NCBI GenBank assembly: GCA_024103275.1
Contig: JAGFIV010000042.1
Location: 1-54,308 of the forward strand
Length of the DNA: 54,308 nucleotides
DNA from: Flavobacteriales bacterium
GTDB lineage: Bacteria > Bacteroidota > Bacteroidia > Flavobacteriales_F > PHOS-HE28
Direction: 5' to 3'
Positions 4,088 to 10,903 of this stretch are shown one piece after another. Positions within the stretch are counted from its first letter, which is position 1; each line of letters opens with the position of its first letter. Both the position numbers and the translations under genes were made by a program. The notes under the pieces are model-generated. The model did no database searches. It had not been told where the DNA came from and saw only the letters and a list, made by a program, of their open reading frames with translations.

Positions 4088-4132
4088 AAGCGGAAAAGAT
4101 CCGCCATTTCAGCTTTCCACTTTCAGCTTTCC
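4078..4132. terminator. bidirectional terminator-like inverted repeat
   Basis: GGAAAGCTGAAAG at 4078-4090 is the exact reverse complement of CTTTCAGCTTTCC at 4120-4132, with a smaller GCGGA/TCCGC hairpin inside (4090-4104). The repeat spans the stop codons of the convergent helicase and ppx genes, so it could terminate both transcripts. A second partial right arm lies at 4107-4118. Confidence 0.6.
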
Positions 4133-5028
4133 ACTTTTCTCCCGCACTGCTTGGTGTACAGGTCGTAGATGATGCCGTCGGCCAGGCCCACCTTGGGCAC
4201 AAAGACCTCCTCGATGCCCGCTTCGTCCATCACGCGCAGGAAGATGTCGGCGGCGGGGATGATCACGTCGGCGCGGTCGGGGCGCAGGCGCAGATGCTGC
4301 ACGCGGTCCTCTAGCGAATAGGAGGCGATGCGGTCGCGCTGCTTGCGGATGTCGTCGCGGTGCAACGGCTCACCGTAGGCGTTGCGGTTCTCCTTGAAGA
4401 TGCGGTTGATGTTGCCGCCGGTCCCGATGGCGGTCAGCGGCCCGCGCTGGGCGTGCGGTTCCTGCAGGAATCCGGAAATGGACGCCCACGCCGCCGCATC
4501 CACCTTGCCGTGCAGCAGGCGCACCGTGCCGATGGGGAAGGAGGCGGAGCGCTTCCGCACCCCCTGCTCGATCCAGGTGAGCTCCGTGCTGCCGCCGCCC
4601 ACGTCGATGTACAGGTAACTGCGGTCCTTCAGCAGGTCCTGCGTCCAGAAGGTGCCCATGATCAAATCGGCCTCCTCGGTGCCGCCGATCACTTCGATCC
4701 GCACACCGCTGCGTTCCTTGGCGAAAGCGATGACCTCCGCGCGGTTTGCGGCCTCGCGCATGGCGCTGGTGGCGCAGCAGCGCAGGTGATGCACGCCATA
4801 CACCTCGGTGAGGAGCCGGAAGGCCTCCAGCGATTTGATCAGCTGGTCGCGCTTGGCCATGCCGATGGCACCGGTGGCGACCACGTCCTCGCCAAGCCGG
4901 ATCGGCACACGCACCAACGTTTGCTTCTTGATCACCGGGTGGTCCTCGCGCGCAATCACCTCGCCGATGAGCAGGCGCACGGCGTTGGAGCCGATGTCGA
5001 TGGCAGCGTATGCAAGCGGACCGGTGAT
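4123..5028 (-). CDS. Ppx/GppA-family phosphatase (exopolyphosphatase / pppGppase), atypical start
   Basis: Short-form Ppx/GppA phosphatase of the ASKHA fold, which hydrolyses polyphosphate or pppGpp in the cytoplasm. Seen: 'AAIDIGSNAVRLLI' phosphate-1 strand, 'CCATSAMREAAN', and the phosphate-2 loop 'DVGGGSTEL'. The conserved first strand lies upstream of the first canonical start (GTG at 4980, which would give 285 residues and cut into this strand). The reading frame continues upstream without any ATG, GTG or TTG. An ATC at 5028-5026 lies 4 bp from a TACCTTCG promoter box, the same layout as the ATG of other genes here, so I place the start there (301 residues), possibly as a mutated or non-canonical start. 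The gene faces the helicase and lies beside a copy of the valS 3' end. The function is well supported; the start is uncertain. Confidence 0.8.
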   Translation of the reverse strand: MTGPLAYAAIDIGSNAVRLLIGEVIAREDHPVIKKQTLVRVPIRLGEDVVATGAIGMAKRDQLIKSLEAFRLLTEVYGVHHLRCCATSAMREAANRAEVIAFAKERSGVRIEVIGGTEEADLIMGTFWTQDLLKDRSYLYIDVGGGSTELTWIEQGVRKRSASFPIGTVRLLHGKVDAAAWASISGFLQEPHAQRGPLTAIGTGGNINRIFKENRNAYGEPLHRDDIRKQRDRIASYSLEDRVQHLRLRPDRADVIIPAADIFLRVMDEAGIEEVFVPKVGLADGIIYDLYTKQCGRKVES

Positions 5029-5050: not shown

Positions 5051-5101
5051 CTACTTCAGCACCGCCAGCCGTTCCTCCAGCGTCGTGATCTTCGGTTCGG
5101 C
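5051..5101 (-). repeat. partial copy 1 of the valS 3' end
   Basis: The 51 bases match the last 51 bases of valS (8264-8314) at 44 positions by eye and encode almost the same tail ('LEERLAVLK' plus stop). It lies between the ppx promoter and the toxin-antitoxin promoter. No gene continues from it, so it is a stray fragment. Confidence 0.75.
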
Positions 5102-5113
5102 CCGATCCGCCCG

Positions 5114-5121
5114 TATCTTCG
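5114..5121 (+). promoter_or_regulatory. -7 promoter box TATCTTCG for the toxin-antitoxin operon
   Basis: TATCTTCG matches TAnnTTYG and ends 5 bp before the antitoxin ATG at 5127. This spacing would put the transcription start at or next to the start codon, so the mRNA is probably leaderless. Confidence 0.5.
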
Positions 5122-5126
5122 CGGAA

Positions 5127-5345
5127 ATGGAACAGTATATCCTCCAATTGAAGGACGCCCGCAAAAAGAAGTTCTTCGATGAGCTGCTGAGCCAACTCGA
5201 TTTCATCGAAGTGGTGAACATCATGAAGGATGGCAAGAAGGCGACGGTCGCTCTTGAGCTGATGGAGGCGTTGGGCGACGCAAAGGCGCACTTGCGTGGA
5301 ACGATGAAGCTCCGTCCCGCGAAGCGCTTGCTCGAAGAGCTTTGA
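5127..5345 (+). CDS. putative antitoxin of a RelE/ParE-type module
   Basis: This 72-residue charged, mainly helical protein immediately precedes a RelE/ParE-type toxin and is therefore its likely antitoxin. No DNA-binding motif is obvious. The N-terminus is rich in Lys and Glu ('LKDARKKKFFDELL'), followed by hydrophobic 'FIEVVNIMKDGKKATVALEL'. The ATG at 5127 is 5 bp from a TATCTTCG promoter box, which favours it over the earlier in-frame codon at 5085. The gene ends ...GAG CTT TGA, and the toxin frame continues in +1 from exactly this point. It sits between two copies of the valS 3' end. Family assignment rests on context, so confidence is moderate. Confidence 0.65.
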   Translation: MEQYILQLKDARKKKFFDELLSQLDFIEVVNIMKDGKKATVALELMEALGDAKAHLRGTMKLRPAKRLLEEL

Positions 5346-5661
5346 GGTCGTCAGTTCGCCGGTTTTCGACCGAGCGGTCAAACGGCTGGCAAAACGGTAC
5401 TCGTCCGTGCGTGCCGACGTTGCGGAGCTGATCGAAGGGTTGACACATGATCCATTGCAGGGCACAGCGCTCGGCAGGGACTGTTACAAGGTCCGAATGG
5501 CCGTTCGATCCAAGGGCAAAGGCAGGTCGGGCGGCACCCGGGTGATCACGTGTGTGAAAGTGGTGCGCCGAACCGTGATCCTGCTCACCATCTACGACAA
5601 ATCGGAAACGGGCGATATCTCCAACAAGGAGTTGGCGAAGCTGGTGGAAATGTTCACCTGA
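5344..5661 (+). CDS. RelE/ParE-family toxin, no canonical start at its N-terminus
   Basis: This is a type II toxin of the RelE/ParE fold; relatives cleave mRNA or block gyrase. The conserved family pattern is visible in full: 'VVSSPVFDRAVKRLAKRY', then 'DPLQGTALGRDCYKVRMA', the basic 'SKGKGRSGGTRVITCVKVV', and the C-terminal 'LLTIYDKSE...ISNKEL'. The first half lies upstream of the first usable start codon (GTG 5407), which would remove the essential first strand and helix (a CTG lies at 5386). Reading starts directly after CTT-TGA of the antitoxin in +1 frame, giving 105 residues. Either the product is made by +1 frameshifting as an antitoxin-toxin fusion, or the start codon has been lost and the toxin is inactive. 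Confidence 0.7.
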   Translation, partial: EVVSSPVFDRAVKRLAKRYSSVRADVAELIEGLTHDPLQGTALGRDCYKVRMAVRSKGKGRSGGTRVITCVKVVRRTVILLTIYDKSETGDISNKELAKLVEMFT

Positions 5662-5682
5662 GCCAGGGCTGCCCAGCTCTCT

Positions 5683-5773
5683 TCACTTCAGCACCGCCAA
5701 CCGTTCCTCCAGTGCCTTGATCTTCGCTTCGGCATCGGCCTTCTTCTTGCGCTCGTTCTCCAGCACCTGCGGC
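5683..5773 (-). pseudogene. partial copy 2 of the valS 3' end
   Basis: Ninety-one bases match the last 91 bases of valS (8264-8354) with only about six differences by eye, including the stop codon. They encode 'QVLENERKKK' and the rest of the valyl-tRNA synthetase coiled-coil tail. Upstream of the match (towards higher coordinates) the similarity stops abruptly and an inverted repeat begins ten bases later. A 60-codon frame runs through it, but it has no sign of being a gene of its own. Confidence 0.8.
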
Positions 5774-5783
5774 AGGACTCTCA

Positions 5784-5953
5784 AACCCGGAATATGCAGT
5801 AGGATTTCTACTACGGCCCGAAATCGCTGCGGCAGCAAGCGTTTCACTGGCTTTCCTTTCGTCAAAATGACATAAGCTATACCTCCTCAACGAAAGCCTT
5901 GCTGCCATTGCGCTTTCGACCCTCGCAACGAACCCTACTGCATAATCCGGGTT
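5784..5953. repeat. 170-bp inverted-repeat (MITE- or att-like) element
   Basis: The 20-bp arms at 5784-5803 and 5934-5953 are reverse complements with one mismatch (AACCCGGAATATGCAGTAGG against its partner). Inside, further imperfect pairing is visible (GGCTTTCCTTTCGT on the left, ACGAAAGCC on the right), so the whole segment could fold into a long imperfect hairpin. It starts ten bases from the end of the valS-tail copy. No transposase is encoded. Confidence 0.6.
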
Positions 5954-6067
5954 CAAAGGCAACCGAATTGCAAGACCTACGTCCCCCGGATAGTACCAAC
6001 CTCAAGATCAATGCGATTGCTGCAGCTCCCTGTCCTCGATGCGCCGATCGTTTCAAAAAGGACATCC

Positions 6068-8263
6068 ATGAAGTGTATCCTGACCATCCTCTTTTCCACG
6101 CTGCTGGCCTTTACGGCGGAGGCGATATCTGTTTCGATCACGGTGGTGAAACAGCCCATTTGCACATACGCCAGTGGCGAGCTGATGGCGGTGGTCAGTG
6201 GCGGCACCGCGCCATACAGCTATGCCTGGAGCACCGGGGCCGTTACCCAATCCATCAGCAGCTTGCCACCCGGCGACTATTCCGTTACGGTGACCGATTC
6301 CAACCAGCAACAGGCCACGGCCGACGTGACGCTGACCACAACGGATTATGGTATTGTTCTCTTTGAAGATTGGTTCAACTTTGGCATGGGCCTATGCAGT
6401 GGAACGGTCCTGATCGCTTTCGATCCCGTAGGAATGGGAATACCGGGCCCTCCACCATATTATGTGGACGGGGTGGAGATGCAAGAGGGGCTTGCCCCAG
6501 ACCCCGATGACCCGGGGGAATATGTGACCTATTACGGTGGGTATGTGGATAACCCCCAGTATGGACAGGACAATAGCTTCAGCTTTGCTGACGGTAACGG
6601 CTGTCCAGGGTTCTATGAAATACCCATTGGTTGGCCGATTCAATGGCCCACGTTGACCACGATGAGCATTCAAGGTGCTTGCGTGGGGACCACTTCAGGC
6701 AGCATCACCATACAATCCAGCGGGGAGGGGCATCAGCAGTTCGTGCAAACGCGCATAAGTCCGGAGGTGCCGGGCTACCCAGGCCATCCCACCGGTGGCG
6801 GGCCGCACGCGTTCACCATCACCGGCCTGGCCGCAGGAAGCTATACCCTGACACAGTTCATGACCGAAACGCCCTTTTTCCCGAGCAGCCAATGTTCCTC
6901 CACGTTCAACTTCACGATCCCGCAGCTTGGTGCGGAATGTGGAACGGTGAGCGGAACGGTCTTCATTGACAATGACCAGGACTGTGTGCAGGATGTGGGC
7001 GAAGTGGGCGTGCCGAACACCGTGCTTGAATTGCTGCCTGGACCTCAGTACCGGTTCACTGACGCTACCGGCGCGTTCAGCATGCAACTGGCGAACGGCA
7101 GTTACACCTTGGGCCAAGGCGATCCCACCTTGGTACAGCTCTGCCCGACCACGGCACCGGCGCCCTTCACGCTCAATTTCAATCCGGTGGTGCTGAACAT
7201 TGCGGACAGCAGCACCGTGGGGCTCGACCTTCGTGCGCACATGACGGGTACGGCCATGCGACCCGGTTTCCCGGGGACCTATTGGGGGCAGGTTCGCAAT
7301 CTGTCGCCACAGGTGAGCGGCGCGGTCACCGTCACCATGGTGATCGACCCTGCATTGACCTACGACGGTGCAACACCTCCACCGACCGATGTGACGGGCA
7401 ATACGGTGACGTGGCAATTCGGCTCTTTTGGCCCCTACCAGCTCATGAACTTGTCGGTGGATGTGCAGGTTCCGCCGGGTACGCCGCTGGGTTCCGTCCT
7501 CAATAGCACATTGACCGTGCTGAACACCTTGGGCGATGCCGACCCTGTGAACAATACGGCCAGCCTGAATGGAATTGTGACAGGCAGCTTCGACCCCAAC
7601 GAGAAGACCGGGCTCACGGATGCCACACGGAGCGGGTCACAGTTCATTTTGGGTGAGGATGCATGGATCGACTATACCGTGCGGTTCCAGAACACGGGCA
7701 CGGATACCGCTTTCACCGTGGTGGTGCGCGATGAGCTGAGCGAGGACCTGGCGATCGGCACCTTGGACATTCTCGGGGCATCGCACGATTTCGTGCCGTC
7801 ATTCGCCGAGGGGCGCGAGCTGGTGTTCTCCTTCAACGATATCCTGTTGCCGGACAGTACCACGGACCTGTTGGGCAGCCAGGGCTATGTCAGCTTCCGG
7901 ATCAAGCCTCGTGCAGATATCCAAGTGGGTGAGGTGATCCAGAATACGGCGGGCATCTACTTCGACTTCAATGAGCCGGTGATCACCGATACGGTGACGC
8001 ACGTGGTTGAGCTCGAAACGGCGGTAGTAGAGGTACCTGCGGGCCGCACCATGCGCTTGGCCCCGAACCCGGCGGACGATGTGCTCCTGGTGCTGGATGC
8101 AAACGCCAACGCCGTGTTCGAGGTCCTGACTTCGGATGGCCGCCGGATGGCGGTTCCCTTCCGACGTATAGGAACAATGGTCAGGATGGACGTGAAGGCG
8201 TTGTCAGCGGGCCTGTACCTCGTACGGAGCGGCCAGGACATTGCGCGCTTTGTGAAGCGCTGA
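6068..8263 (+). CDS. secreted multidomain protein with T9SS type A sorting domain
   Basis: This is a 731-residue cell-surface or secreted protein exported by Sec and then by the type IX system. It has a signal peptide (residues 1 to about 19, 'MKCILTILFSTLLAF'), a SprB-type repeat domain (about 20-100, 'SGGTAPYSYAWSTGA...LPPGDYSVTVTD'), an SdrD B-like segment (from about 293, 'GTVFIDNDQDCVQDVGE'), DUF11-like and DUF7619-like beta domains ('SFDPNEKTG' near 507), and a C-terminal sorting domain (about 655-731, 'LAPNPADDVLLVLD' to 'GLYLVRSG'). The ATG at 6068 begins the signal peptide. Its stop codon abuts the valS stop codon with no spacer (TGA|TCA), and it lies between two valS-tail copies. 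The ligand is unknown; a role in adhesion is inference. Confidence 0.85.
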   Translation: MKCILTILFSTLLAFTAEAISVSITVVKQPICTYASGELMAVVSGGTAPYSYAWSTGAVTQSISSLPPGDYSVTVTDSNQQQATADVTLTTTDYGIVLFEDWFNFGMGLCSGTVLIAFDPVGMGIPGPPPYYVDGVEMQEGLAPDPDDPGEYVTYYGGYVDNPQYGQDNSFSFADGNGCPGFYEIPIGWPIQWPTLTTMSIQGACVGTTSGSITIQSSGEGHQQFVQTRISPEVPGYPGHPTGGGPHAFTITGLAAGSYTLTQFMTETPFFPSSQCSSTFNFTIPQLGAECGTVSGTVFIDNDQDCVQDVGEVGVPNTVLELLPGPQYRFTDATGAFSMQLANGSYTLGQGDPTLVQLCPTTAPAPFTLNFNPVVLNIADSSTVGLDLRAHMTGTAMRPGFPGTYWGQVRNLSPQVSGAVTVTMVIDPALTYDGATPPPTDVTGNTVTWQFGSFGPYQLMNLSVDVQVPPGTPLGSVLNSTLTVLNTLGDADPVNNTASLNGIVTGSFDPNEKTGLTDATRSGSQFILGEDAWIDYTVRFQNTGTDTAFTVVVRDELSEDLAIGTLDILGASHDFVPSFAEGRELVFSFNDILLPDSTTDLLGSQGYVSFRIKPRADIQVGEVIQNTAGIYFDFNEPVITDTVTHVVELETAVVEVPAGRTMRLAPNPADDVLLVLDANANAVFEVLTSDGRRMAVPFRRIGTMVRMDVKALSAGLYLVRSGQDIARFVKR

Positions 8264-10903
8264 TCACTTCAACACCGCCAGCCGCTCCTCCAGCGCCTTG
8301 ATCTTCGCTTCGGCGTCGGCTTTCTTCTTGCGCTCGTTCTCCAGCACCTGCGGCGGCGCACCGTTCACGAAACGCTCGTTGCCGAGCTTCTTGTCCACGC
8401 TGGCCAGGAAGCCGCGCAGGTACTTCAGCTCCTCTTCGGCCTTTTTGGCCTCGACGGCGGTGTCCATCCGCGGCAGAACCACGGCGTACTCGGTTGCCCC
8501 GGAGAACACGGCGGTGGCACCAGCCGGGATGGACCCGAATGGAACGGCAAGCGCACCAGTGTTAGCGAGCTTGTCGACCAATGAAGCCGAAGCCGTGCTC
8601 AACGGCGTGTCAGTGGTCGGTCCCACTTCGAGCGGTTCCTTCGGGGATATTCCCCGCTCATTGCGCACGTTGCGCACGGCGCTCACCAGGTCAAAGGCGT
8701 GCTGCACCTCGGCCTCCAAGGCCGCATCCCCTTCGCCGCCTTGCGGCCACGACGCAACGATGATGTCCTCGCCGGGCTTGCGCTCGCGCAGGTGGTGCCA
8801 CAGCTCTTCGGTGAGGAAGGGCATGTAGGGATGCAGCAGCTTCAGCACATCCTCGAACAGGCCGATCGTGGCCTCGTAGGTCGCGGCATCGATCGGCTCC
8901 TGGCGGGCATCGCCCGCCGAAGCCTTGGCGAAGGCGGGCTTGATGCTCTCGAGGTACCAGCTGCAGAGGTCGTCCCAGATCAGCTTGTACGTGGTGAGCA
9001 GGGCATCGCTGATGCGGAACTGGTCGTACAGGCCGTTCAGTTCAGTGGTGGTGCGGGCGATGCGCGAACGCATCCATGCGACCGCTGCTGTGGAGGAAGC
9101 CGGTTGCTCCTTCTCTGCGACCTCCCAGCCCCTCACCAGGCGGAAGGCGTTCCAGATCTTGTTGGCGAAGTTGCGGCCCTGTTCACAGAGGCTCTCGTCG
9201 AAGGGCAGGTCGTTGCCCGCCGGTGAGGAGAAGAGCATGCCCGCGCGCACGCCGTCGGCGCCGTACTTGGCGATCAGCTCCAGCGGATCGGGGCTGTTGC
9301 CCAGGCTCTTGCTCATCTTGCGCCCCAGCTTGTCGCGCACGATGCCGGTGAGGTACACGTTCTTGAAGGGCACCTCTCCGCGGTATTCCAGTCCGGCCAT
9401 GATCATGCGTGCCACCCAGAAGAAGAGGATCTCCGGCGCGGTCACCAGGTCGTTGGTGGGGTAGTAGTACTTGATGTCCTTGTTCTGCGGGTCCTTGAAC
9501 CCGTCGAACACGCTGATGGGCCACAGCCAGCTGCTGAACCAGGTGTCCACCACATCCTCGTCCTGCTTGATGCCGTTGGTGCCCTGCCCGGCGGCCTTGA
9601 ACTGCGCGACGGCTTCGGCCTCGGTGCGGCACACGGCCACATCGCCCGCCTCGTTGTACCACGCCGGGATCCGCTGCCCCCACCAGAGCTGGCGGCTGAT
9701 GCACCAGTCGCGCACGTTCTCCATCCAGTAGGTGTACGTGTTCACGAACTTCTGCGGGTGCAGCTTCACGCGGCCGTCCTTCACCACTCCCAGCGCGGGC
9801 TTGGCCAGCTCGCCCATCTTCACGAACCACTGCAGGCTGAGGCGCGGTTCGATCACCGCATCGGTGCGCTCGCTGGTGCCCACCTTGTTCACGATGTCCT
9901 CGGTCTTCACCAGGTGGCCCTTTTCCTCCAGTTCCTTGGCGATCTTCTTGCGCACCACGAAGCGGTCCTCGCCCACGTAGAGCTGGGCGGCCTCGCTCAG
10001 CGTGCCGTCGGGGTTCAGCGTGTCCACCACTTCCAGGCCGTGGCGTTGGCCGATCTCCCAGTCGTTGATGTCGTGCGCGGGCGTCACCTTCAGCGCGCCG
10101 GTGCCGAATTCGCGCTCCACGTAGGCGTCGAAGATGACGGGCACGCTGCGGCCGATCAGCGGCACCAGCACGCGTTTGCCCTTCAGGTGTGCGTAGCGCT
10201 CGTCCTCCGGGTGCACGGCCACGGCGGTATCGCCCAGGATCGTTTCCGGGCGTGTCGTCGCTATCGTGATCCACTCGTCCGTGGTGCCTTCGACCAGGTA
10301 CCGCACGTGATAGAGCTTGGAGTTGACCTCCCTGTAGATCACCTCCTCATCGCTCACGGCAGTGAGGGCCTGCGGATCCCAGTTCACCATGCGCAGGCCG
10401 CGGTACACCAAGCCCTTCTTGTGCAGGTCGATGAACACGTCGATCACGGCGTCGCTCAGCGCGGGCTCCATGGTGAAGCGCGTGCGGTCCCAATCGCAGC
10501 TGGCGCCCAGCTTCTTCAGTTGCTCCAGGATCACGCCGCCGTACTTCTCCTTCCAGGCGAAGGCATGCTTCAGGAACTCTTCGCGTCCGATGGCGCTCTT
10601 CTTGATGCCCTGCTCGGCCAGGAGGCGCACCACCTTGGCCTCGGTGGCGATGCTCGCATGGTCGGTGCCGGGCACCCAGCAGGCGTTCTTCCCCTGCATG
10701 CGGGCGCGACGCACCAGTACGTCCTGGATGGTGTTGTTCAGCATGTGCCCCATGTGCAGCACGCCGGTGACGTTGGGCGGGGGGATCACCACCGTGTAGG
10801 GTTCGCGGTCGTCGGGCATGCTGCGGAAGTAGCCCTTCTCCATCCAGTGGGCATACCACCTGCCCTCCACGGCCTTGGCCTCGTAATGCTTGGGAATTTC
10901 CAT
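8264..10903 (-). CDS. valS: valyl-tRNA synthetase
   Basis: Charges tRNA-Val with valine in the cytoplasm and edits mischarged threonine. It has 879 residues, the usual length. Seen: class I signature HMGH (residues 50-53), the CP1 editing domain ('TTRPETILGDTAVAVHP'), KMSKS (529-533), the anticodon-binding helical region, and the C-terminal coiled coil ending 'LEERLAVLK'. The ATG at 10903 gives the standard N-terminus; a TAACTTCG box lies 17 bp upstream. Two odd points: an in-frame palindromic insertion encoding 'PAFAKASAGDARQE' at about residues 654-668, in a loop after 'CSWYLESIK', and partial copies of the gene's 3' end at 5683-5773 and 5051-5101. The gene ends directly against the convergent T9SS gene, leaving no room for a terminator. 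Confidence 0.97.
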   Translation of the reverse strand: MEIPKHYEAKAVEGRWYAHWMEKGYFRSMPDDREPYTVVIPPPNVTGVLHMGHMLNNTIQDVLVRRARMQGKNACWVPGTDHASIATEAKVVRLLAEQGIKKSAIGREEFLKHAFAWKEKYGGVILEQLKKLGASCDWDRTRFTMEPALSDAVIDVFIDLHKKGLVYRGLRMVNWDPQALTAVSDEEVIYREVNSKLYHVRYLVEGTTDEWITIATTRPETILGDTAVAVHPEDERYAHLKGKRVLVPLIGRSVPVIFDAYVEREFGTGALKVTPAHDINDWEIGQRHGLEVVDTLNPDGTLSEAAQLYVGEDRFVVRKKIAKELEEKGHLVKTEDIVNKVGTSERTDAVIEPRLSLQWFVKMGELAKPALGVVKDGRVKLHPQKFVNTYTYWMENVRDWCISRQLWWGQRIPAWYNEAGDVAVCRTEAEAVAQFKAAGQGTNGIKQDEDVVDTWFSSWLWPISVFDGFKDPQNKDIKYYYPTNDLVTAPEILFFWVARMIMAGLEYRGEVPFKNVYLTGIVRDKLGRKMSKSLGNSPDPLELIAKYGADGVRAGMLFSSPAGNDLPFDESLCEQGRNFANKIWNAFRLVRGWEVAEKEQPASSTAAVAWMRSRIARTTTELNGLYDQFRISDALLTTYKLIWDDLCSWYLESIKPAFAKASAGDARQEPIDAATYEATIGLFEDVLKLLHPYMPFLTEELWHHLRERKPGEDIIVASWPQGGEGDAALEAEVQHAFDLVSAVRNVRNERGISPKEPLEVGPTTDTPLSTASASLVDKLANTGALAVPFGSIPAGATAVFSGATEYAVVLPRMDTAVEAKKAEEELKYLRGFLASVDKKLGNERFVNGAPPQVLENERKKKADAEAKIKALEERLAVLK
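8905..8942. repeat. valS: in-frame palindromic repeat inside valS
   Basis: GCCCGCCGAAGCC and TTGGCGAAGGCGGGC (8912-8939) form an imperfect palindrome, flanked by another GGCGGGC at 8902-8908. On the coding strand it reads as the peptide 'AFAKASAG'. Relatives of this enzyme normally pass directly from 'IKPAY' to 'PIDAATYE', so about 13 residues are extra. This looks like a mobile palindromic unit that inserted without breaking the frame. Confidence 0.65.

Follow-up and report, generated by a model that had tools for sequence, protein, structure and literature searches.

Serial insertion at the 3′ end of valS, with displaced gene ends left behind, in a genus of Flavobacteriales

The window analysed here, a stretch of 54,308 nucleotides that makes up positions 1 to 54,308 of contig JAGFIV010000042.1 from a Flavobacteriales bacterium (assembly GCA_024103275.1), contains the valyl-tRNA synthetase gene valS and, behind it on the same strand, the phosphatase gene ppx, with two displaced copies of the valS 3′ end (here called tails) and two inserts lying between them (Table 1). 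Comparison with related genomes indicates that cargo has been inserted serially at the 3′ end of valS, with the tail restored each time, as the original prediction for this DNA had proposed from the layout. On balance, we favour homologous insertion-duplication as the explanation, the valS-ppx interval being a stack-building locus that has no recombinase of its own. As several genomes show, incoming DNA consists of the last part of valS followed by cargo; after insertion the resident valS ends in the incoming tail, followed by the cargo and then by the old tail, still joined to its old neighbour. Repeats of the event place the newest insert beside valS and leave the oldest displaced tail beside ppx.

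Table 1. Features of the valS-ppx locus in the window.
Feature	Position	Strand	Remarks
valS (valyl-tRNA synthetase)	8264..10903	-	Intact, with C-terminal arm; PF00133 (E 4e-124), PF08264, PF10458 (E 1e-9)
Resident valS tail, LAVLK type	8264..8354	-	Strand common to both displaced copies
T9SS-type surface protein gene	6068..8263	+	Youngest cargo; SprB repeat, DUF11, DUF7619
Imperfect inverted repeat	5784-5845 / 5892-5953		Arms of 62 nt each, 73% complementary; separates the T9SS gene from displaced tail 2
Displaced valS tail 2	5683..5773	-	91 bp, 85/91 identical; marks the valS end before the T9SS insert
RelE-family toxin open frame	5308..5661	+	PF06296 (E 6e-7)
Antitoxin gene	5127..5345	+	72 aa; no Pfam match
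Displaced valS tail 1	5051..5101	-	51 bp, 44/51 identical; abuts the ppx leader; ancestral valS end
ppx (Ppx/GppA phosphatase)	4123..5028	-	Ancestral downstream neighbour of valS; probable AUC start at 5028

The two copies match the last 91 and the last 51 bases of valS in the same orientation and, as predicted, each interval between consecutive copies carries one plus-strand insert, namely a RelE-type toxin-antitoxin pair and a protein of the type IX secretion system (T9SS) kind, with domains identified by Pfam. The T9SS protein has 731 aa, with a match to Por_Secre_tail that falls below the cut-off, and its stop codon (8261-8263) abuts that of valS (8264-8266) exactly, reading TGATCA. When the 91-bp tail was used to search the window's own genome, only three strong matches were found (E 6e-56, 1e-33 and 3e-12), the next best having E 0.016. 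Lying directly against the ppx leader, the 51-bp copy is the ancestral end of valS; and because this copy is the oldest, the 91-bp copy the next and the resident tail the youngest, the toxin-antitoxin pair went in first and the T9SS gene followed. This pair is present at the same place in another genome of the genus, G006 (genomes are numbered G, with G000 the window's own, and loci L), where its DNA is 82% identical, the antitoxin is 93% identical and a displaced tail is again next to ppx.

Evidence that the tail arrives with the cargo comes from comparison of filled and empty genomes. In G018, valS ends in ...ERIAQLHA (QL type) and is followed by a secreted-protein-like gene with a 107-aa frame; its longer counterpart in G031 matches no Pfam family. 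In G020 and G031, valS ends in ...ERLAVLG and is followed by other cargo, and then by QL-type tails (...DWIGQLST and ...ERYGQLSA) that abut G018's gene. The same arrangement is seen in a second clade, where valS ends in ...RIAQLA in G040, while in G030 it ends in ...RLAVLK, followed by an ATPase gene and an old-type tail (...RMRQLAD) before sequence matching G040. In a codon alignment, LAVL and QL genomes have an identity of 0.45 in the last 8 codons and of 0.84 just upstream. Since the old-type tail abuts the old neighbour while valS carries the new type, the incoming DNA in G018/G020/G031 and in G040/G030 brought its own tail, displacing the resident tail downstream. The LAVL/QL switch together with a displaced old tail, seen in both clades, thus shows a replacement gene end on the incoming element.

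A third comparison involves G009, in which valS is followed directly by the T9 gene with a TGATCA junction. In G029 and G012 a CarboxypepD_reg gene and a displaced tail lie between valS and G009's T9 gene (94% and 85% identical DNA respectively), with the same TGATCA. The displaced tail of G006 agrees with the G043 tail at 53/53 positions, against 5 differences for the resident tail of G006 itself. What is found at valS is serial insertion at one site that leaves repeats of the target end, as in an additive flexible genomic island.

The survey covered 45 genomes of the window's family. valS was found in 40 of them, all of one genus; the six genus loci with record names are from metagenome assemblies called Flavobacteriales or Bacteroidetes bacterium. 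We counted 38 loci that have the valS stop and useful downstream sequence, 31 of which reach ppx, having dropped L074 (a second valS, 44% identical), L075 and L076 (27 bp and 268 bp downstream) and L077 (no valS stop). Most of the genomes are fragmented assemblies, and events shared by descent lower the number of independent cases. ppx is on the valS strand in 31/31 complete intervals, and its first aligned codon lies anywhere from 71 bp to about 20 kb beyond the valS stop; six of these intervals are empty (G005 and G033, 71 bp; G041, 98; G044, 99; G014, 106; G043, 113). The proposed ancestral order, valS followed by ppx, is borne out.

The valS-ppx interval therefore holds a variable cassette between two conserved genes, as a minimal mobile element does, and the relatives do not share a fixed set of copies without variable cargo, an outcome that the original prediction had named as fatal to it. 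Besides the RelE pair, the cargo includes T9SS proteins (often in tandem), HicA, an AAA_14/DUF4143 ATPase, small CarboxypepD_reg proteins, HmuY with a TonB receptor, AbgT transporters and more, in mixed orientation. The AAA_14/DUF4143 protein matches the PADLOC candidate PDC-S01; PADLOC defence annotation gave no match for the window's toxin-antitoxin proteins or for HicA. Where the ATPase cassette lies just after the valS stop (L054, L044, L063, L071) it opens with an inverted repeat (CCTTGTAT...TTGAA / TTCAAAA...CAAGG), and in G020 and G021 only the inverted repeat and the 3′ end of the gene are left. The intervals of G002 and G010 (L046, L052, L243, L244) hold long antisense arrays of T9SS paralogues over 17-20 kb, without detected displaced tails.

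Displaced tails number 15, in 11 of the 38 loci, and every one is in valS orientation. Their ends coincide with the valS stop or, where copies are worn, fall no more than about 20 bp from it; by BLAST they are 29-91 bp long (with starts at -29 to -91), and their DNA identities are mostly 79-100% over the aligned tail. Stacks comprise two displaced tails both in the window and in G021, and three in G020. A 26-bp match far beyond ppx in L039 and a weak match at 6589-6703 in L069 were not counted as copies, and the displaced tail of G031 (L044), visible by synteny only, is outside the 15. When 44 genomes were searched with the 91-bp tail (at most 20 candidates scored per genome), copies were found at valS loci only; the single exception, a weak match of 40 bp in G030 (L245), was rejected as a tail copy as it does not resemble the valS end. 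By eye, one displaced tail in each of L063 and L070 has a short palindrome at the same point of the tail, possibly REP-like (repetitive extragenic palindromic).

Of 80 further Bacteroidota valS loci, each with 0.6 to 10 kb of downstream sequence, 6 belong to the genus; a copy was found at one of the 74 outside the genus, compared to 11 of 38 within it (Fisher p 2e-5). A degenerate pattern of the tail had 0 matches in viral contigs, and phage and plasmid collections gave one partial phage match of 79%, in a record without annotation, and two matches of 30 bp within ParB genes. Lower third-position divergence was also considered as a sign of a mobile tail, and was rejected: divergence falls towards the tail, where it is not clearly below that of other conserved stretches.

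No recombinase was found that belongs to the locus. Phage_integrase (PF00589) was searched for in the 45 genomes and, among the matches listed (down to about E 3e-11), there is none in a valS-ppx interval, the nearest on valS contigs being about 18-24 kb away, in seven genomes. Resolvase was found in 0/44 genomes. Neither a recombinase nor a transposase is present among 25 of 40 Pfam families for 50 of the 64 non-T9SS open reading frames (ORFs) in the intervals. Among the matches listed, therefore, there is neither an integrase adjacent to the array, as in an integron, nor a recombinase encoded in the element, as in a site-specific element, and the parallel that the original prediction drew with integrases and integron cassettes was not upheld.

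Similar arrangements were found at other genes (their names, apart from valS and ppx, were read from C-terminal sequences without a database call). On a first look, direct repeats were present around the pair at 8 of 12 genus loci with the window's antitoxin family. By a stricter count, bracketing was found at 7/12 loci of the antitoxin family (12 of 15 sampled), 8/30 for HicA (30 of 53) and 2/8 for HigB (all 8), and at 1/30 cold-shock controls (30 of a longer list). Toxin-antitoxin loci are thus bracketed by direct repeats in 17/50 cases and cold-shock genes in 1/30 (Fisher p 0.0017), where the loci are not independent of one another. The repeat is, or includes, the 3′ end of a gene at 9/50 toxin-antitoxin loci and at 0/30 controls (p 0.02). 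The nine comprise valS twice (L159, L160), katG (L286), and hiuH, lysS, hflX, a T9SS-tail-like gene and two regulator-like genes (L163, L167, L263, L267, L276, L280). We left out L254, which satisfies the rule numerically (stop 6 bp inside the copy) and is likely to be in the wrong frame, while L164, L251, L264, L272 and L275 are bracketed and were not classed as gene-tail loci. L161 and L170 resemble, by eye, intergenic repeats or hairpins, as does L165, which was bracketed in the first look and uncounted in the stricter one; in two genomes the repeat around RelE-family pairs is hairpin-like and terminator-like (L165, 1390-1455/2040-2100; L170, 1107-1165/1753-1813).

The duplicated gene ends vary in length, being 29-91 bp at valS, 66 at hiuH, 96 and 260 at lysS, 102 and 122 at hflX, and 521 at katG. 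For hiuH and katG there are bracketing repeats around cargo; the katG repeat extends past the stop, and a HigB-type toxin lies between the copies. For hflX and lysS there are also filled and empty genomes to compare. Over 400 bp, what follows the displaced hflX tail of G031 shares 96.75% identity with the DNA directly behind hflX in G020, and the sequence after the G020 lysS copy matches the post-lysS sequence of G031 from the first base (88% over 192 bp). Tail copies were found within the fetched flank at 3/29 hflX loci and 1/29 lysS loci; the lysS copy of G034 is beyond the fetched flank, with about 1 kb of other sequence preceding the G031-like stretch. Displaced hflX tails are also present in G005 and in the window's own genome, with another toxin-antitoxin-like pair (by eye) as cargo; the latter forms a second similar layout (G000:C56, L324), consisting of hflX (named by eye), the pair and 122 bp of displaced hflX tail. 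At valS, hflX and lysS, direct repeats of the host gene thus bracket cargo, with the old neighbour behind the second copy, and insertion with duplication occurs at unrelated genes with variable repeat length.

The favoured mechanism would begin with DNA from relatives, probably taken up by transformation, that pairs with the valS end. A single crossover within the tail, together with non-homologous closure of the other end, would give insertion with duplication, and the closure might proceed via a circularised fragment or by pairing across sister chromatids. Survivors would be limited to events that leave valS whole. Displaced tails could themselves serve as homology arms, such that a unit of cargo plus tail can join any relative. 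We prefer a general homologous process of this kind to a single attachment site because the duplicated sequence is the local gene end, of anything from 29 to 521 bp, and because similar duplications occur at hflX, lysS, katG and hiuH, whose tails are different.

The main rival, which we regard as rather unlikely, is a site-specific integrase acting in trans on a core in the valS tail (about -45 to -23, around KIKALEER), with cargo circles that carry a matching core and a replacement tail. Such an enzyme could be available, as tyrosine recombinase genes are present in 43/45 genomes, and it would account for the location of old/new switching in the last 8 codons and for the junction of the AAA cassette with the tail being at nearly the same position in G030 and G021 despite different displaced-tail types. 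It is less easily reconciled with the integrase and Resolvase searches reported above, or with bracketing repeats that consist of unrelated gene ends at hflX, lysS, katG and hiuH. The best imperfect dyad in the tail (7/9 arms, 5-bp spacer) does sit at the switch; however, its score was reached by 59/500 shuffles, and an inverted-repeat core was set aside as evidence.

Several observations weigh against homologous insertion-duplication. Eight of the 15 copies start at -42 to -54 (9/15 ungapped), as an attachment site would predict, whereas the others start at -29, -64, -66, -72, -76, -87 and -91. The switching of tail type is confined to the last ~25 bp, which looks more site-specific than general homologous recombination would, and the stretch shared by valS tails is short for RecA-type exchange. 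The evidence for import of a foreign tail does not extend to six of the 15 copies (G012, G037, G030, G008, one of G020, and G032), for which the genome's own valS is the best or tied-best match. At the other genes, the displaced copy of the 102-bp hflX tail of G031 agrees with G020 at 89/102 positions and the resident tail agrees with G020 at 91/102, so that the fit to a crossover is loose; no relative matched the sequence following the G000 and G005 hflX copies from the first base, and the sequence after the G034 lysS copy has no counterpart behind lysS in relatives. Two of the nine gene-tail cases (L263, L276) may be paralogous regulators, and events may share descent. Finally, a general scan of 551 ORFs, of which 518 came from 800 kb of G037 and 33 from the window, gave 13 downstream tail copies, hardly more than the 9 upstream head copies, and hence no strong overall excess. 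Six of the 13 were inspected, and katG is clear, the others being paralogues, internal duplications or doubtful frames. Because of these counts, it is concluded that gene-tail copies are not simply common everywhere.

A further possibility is that the tail is not imported at all, and that a transposition- or replication-type process inserts the cargo and copies the host's own tail. The six copies closest to their own valS, among them that of G008 with its rare variants, would fit this. We consider it improbable, since resident and displaced tails differ in type in G018/G020/G031 and in G040/G030, the displaced tail of G006 equals the tail of another genome and not its own, and the Pfam families listed for interval ORFs include no transposase. 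That there is no insertion system, and that the copies come from independent tandem duplications of the valS end (as is the case in Fulvivirga imtechensis, L098, where the copy outside the genus is a plain tandem duplication of the tail and downstream sequence), from convergent coiled-coil coding sequence, which the original prediction had itself raised, or from assembly error, is extremely improbable given the high identities, the cargo between copies, the filled and empty pairs, the older tail types beside their expected neighbours, which mark the copies as DNA duplicates, and the presence of copies in 11 separate assemblies, one of just 7 contigs.

The nearest described case that we found is the additive island of Ca. 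Methylopumilus. There, repeats of the final 20 nt of tRNA-Lys stand before the additive island fGI-2, and additive islands are ascribed to mobile elements, with mostly unknown cargo (PMC10872708). The target there is a tRNA gene, whereas here it is an essential protein gene, often with cargo of one or two genes; here, too, exchange of a coding tail is seen by type in two clades, filled and empty genomes can be paired, and the arrangement recurs at several genes. Minimal mobile elements are located between conserved genes and are transferred by transformation and homologous recombination, which replaces what lies between two conserved flanks, whereas insertion at valS-ppx is additive and leaves displaced tails and stacks. 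For the minimal mobile elements of Neisseria, gene cassettes are described as horizontally exchanged (PMC2649163).

Integron cassettes are small, have a recombination-like site at one end and are ordered newest first. They differ from what is seen here, where there is no integrase beside the array among the matches listed, cargo lies in either orientation, and what is repeated is the end of a functional gene. Elements at gene 3′ ends, such as integrative and conjugative elements, phages and tycheposons (the last named in PMC10872708), restore the gene end and displace the old one. In contrast to all of these, no recombinase is seen in the cargo here, and the layout is similar at several unrelated genes. 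In S. pneumoniae, one transformant is described that had an additive insertion with a 3,276-bp duplication, by a mechanism that was unclear to its authors (PMC3784515). That was a laboratory event, whereas here the outcome recurs at gene ends throughout a genus. No description of duplicated gene ends on both sides of toxin-antitoxin loci was found in a literature search that covered mostly titles and abstract openings, with most subscription journals outside it.

Some further features of the window may be mentioned. The start codon of ppx is probably AUC, at 5026-5028 on the minus strand, to judge from the alignment: the column holds ATC in 25/28 genomes, GTG in two and ATG in one, and 13/28 genomes have no in-frame ATG, GTG or TTG between the upstream stop and the conserved ppx region. 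Where the toxin gene of G006 starts with ATG, the window has a different codon, and its first usual start is GTG at 5407. The inverted repeat at 5784..5953 is perhaps a small mobile repeat.

More tentatively, we suggest that toxin-antitoxin modules and small cassettes may spread in this genus without a recombinase of their own, as units of cargo plus core-gene tail, in which the host gene end is the homology arm, the essentiality of the gene filters for events that restore its tail, and addiction prevents loop-out. The excess of toxin-antitoxin pairs could then arise because addiction punishes loop-out between direct repeats. It is an open question how toxin-antitoxin pairs on chromosomes, and cargo of single genes, can move in the absence of recombinases. 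Here the scar is legible, in that a changed gene end, the cargo, and a displaced old end joined to its old neighbour allow the direction and order of insertion to be read, and it offers a rule for searches, namely direct repeats of a gene end around cargo. The idea that addiction stabilises a duplication becomes directly testable. If the suggestion is correct, the 3′ ends of core genes such as valS, hflX, lysS, katG and hiuH would be general sites at which selfish genes land additively without an integrase, and gene ends like that of valS would be predictable sites of insertion.

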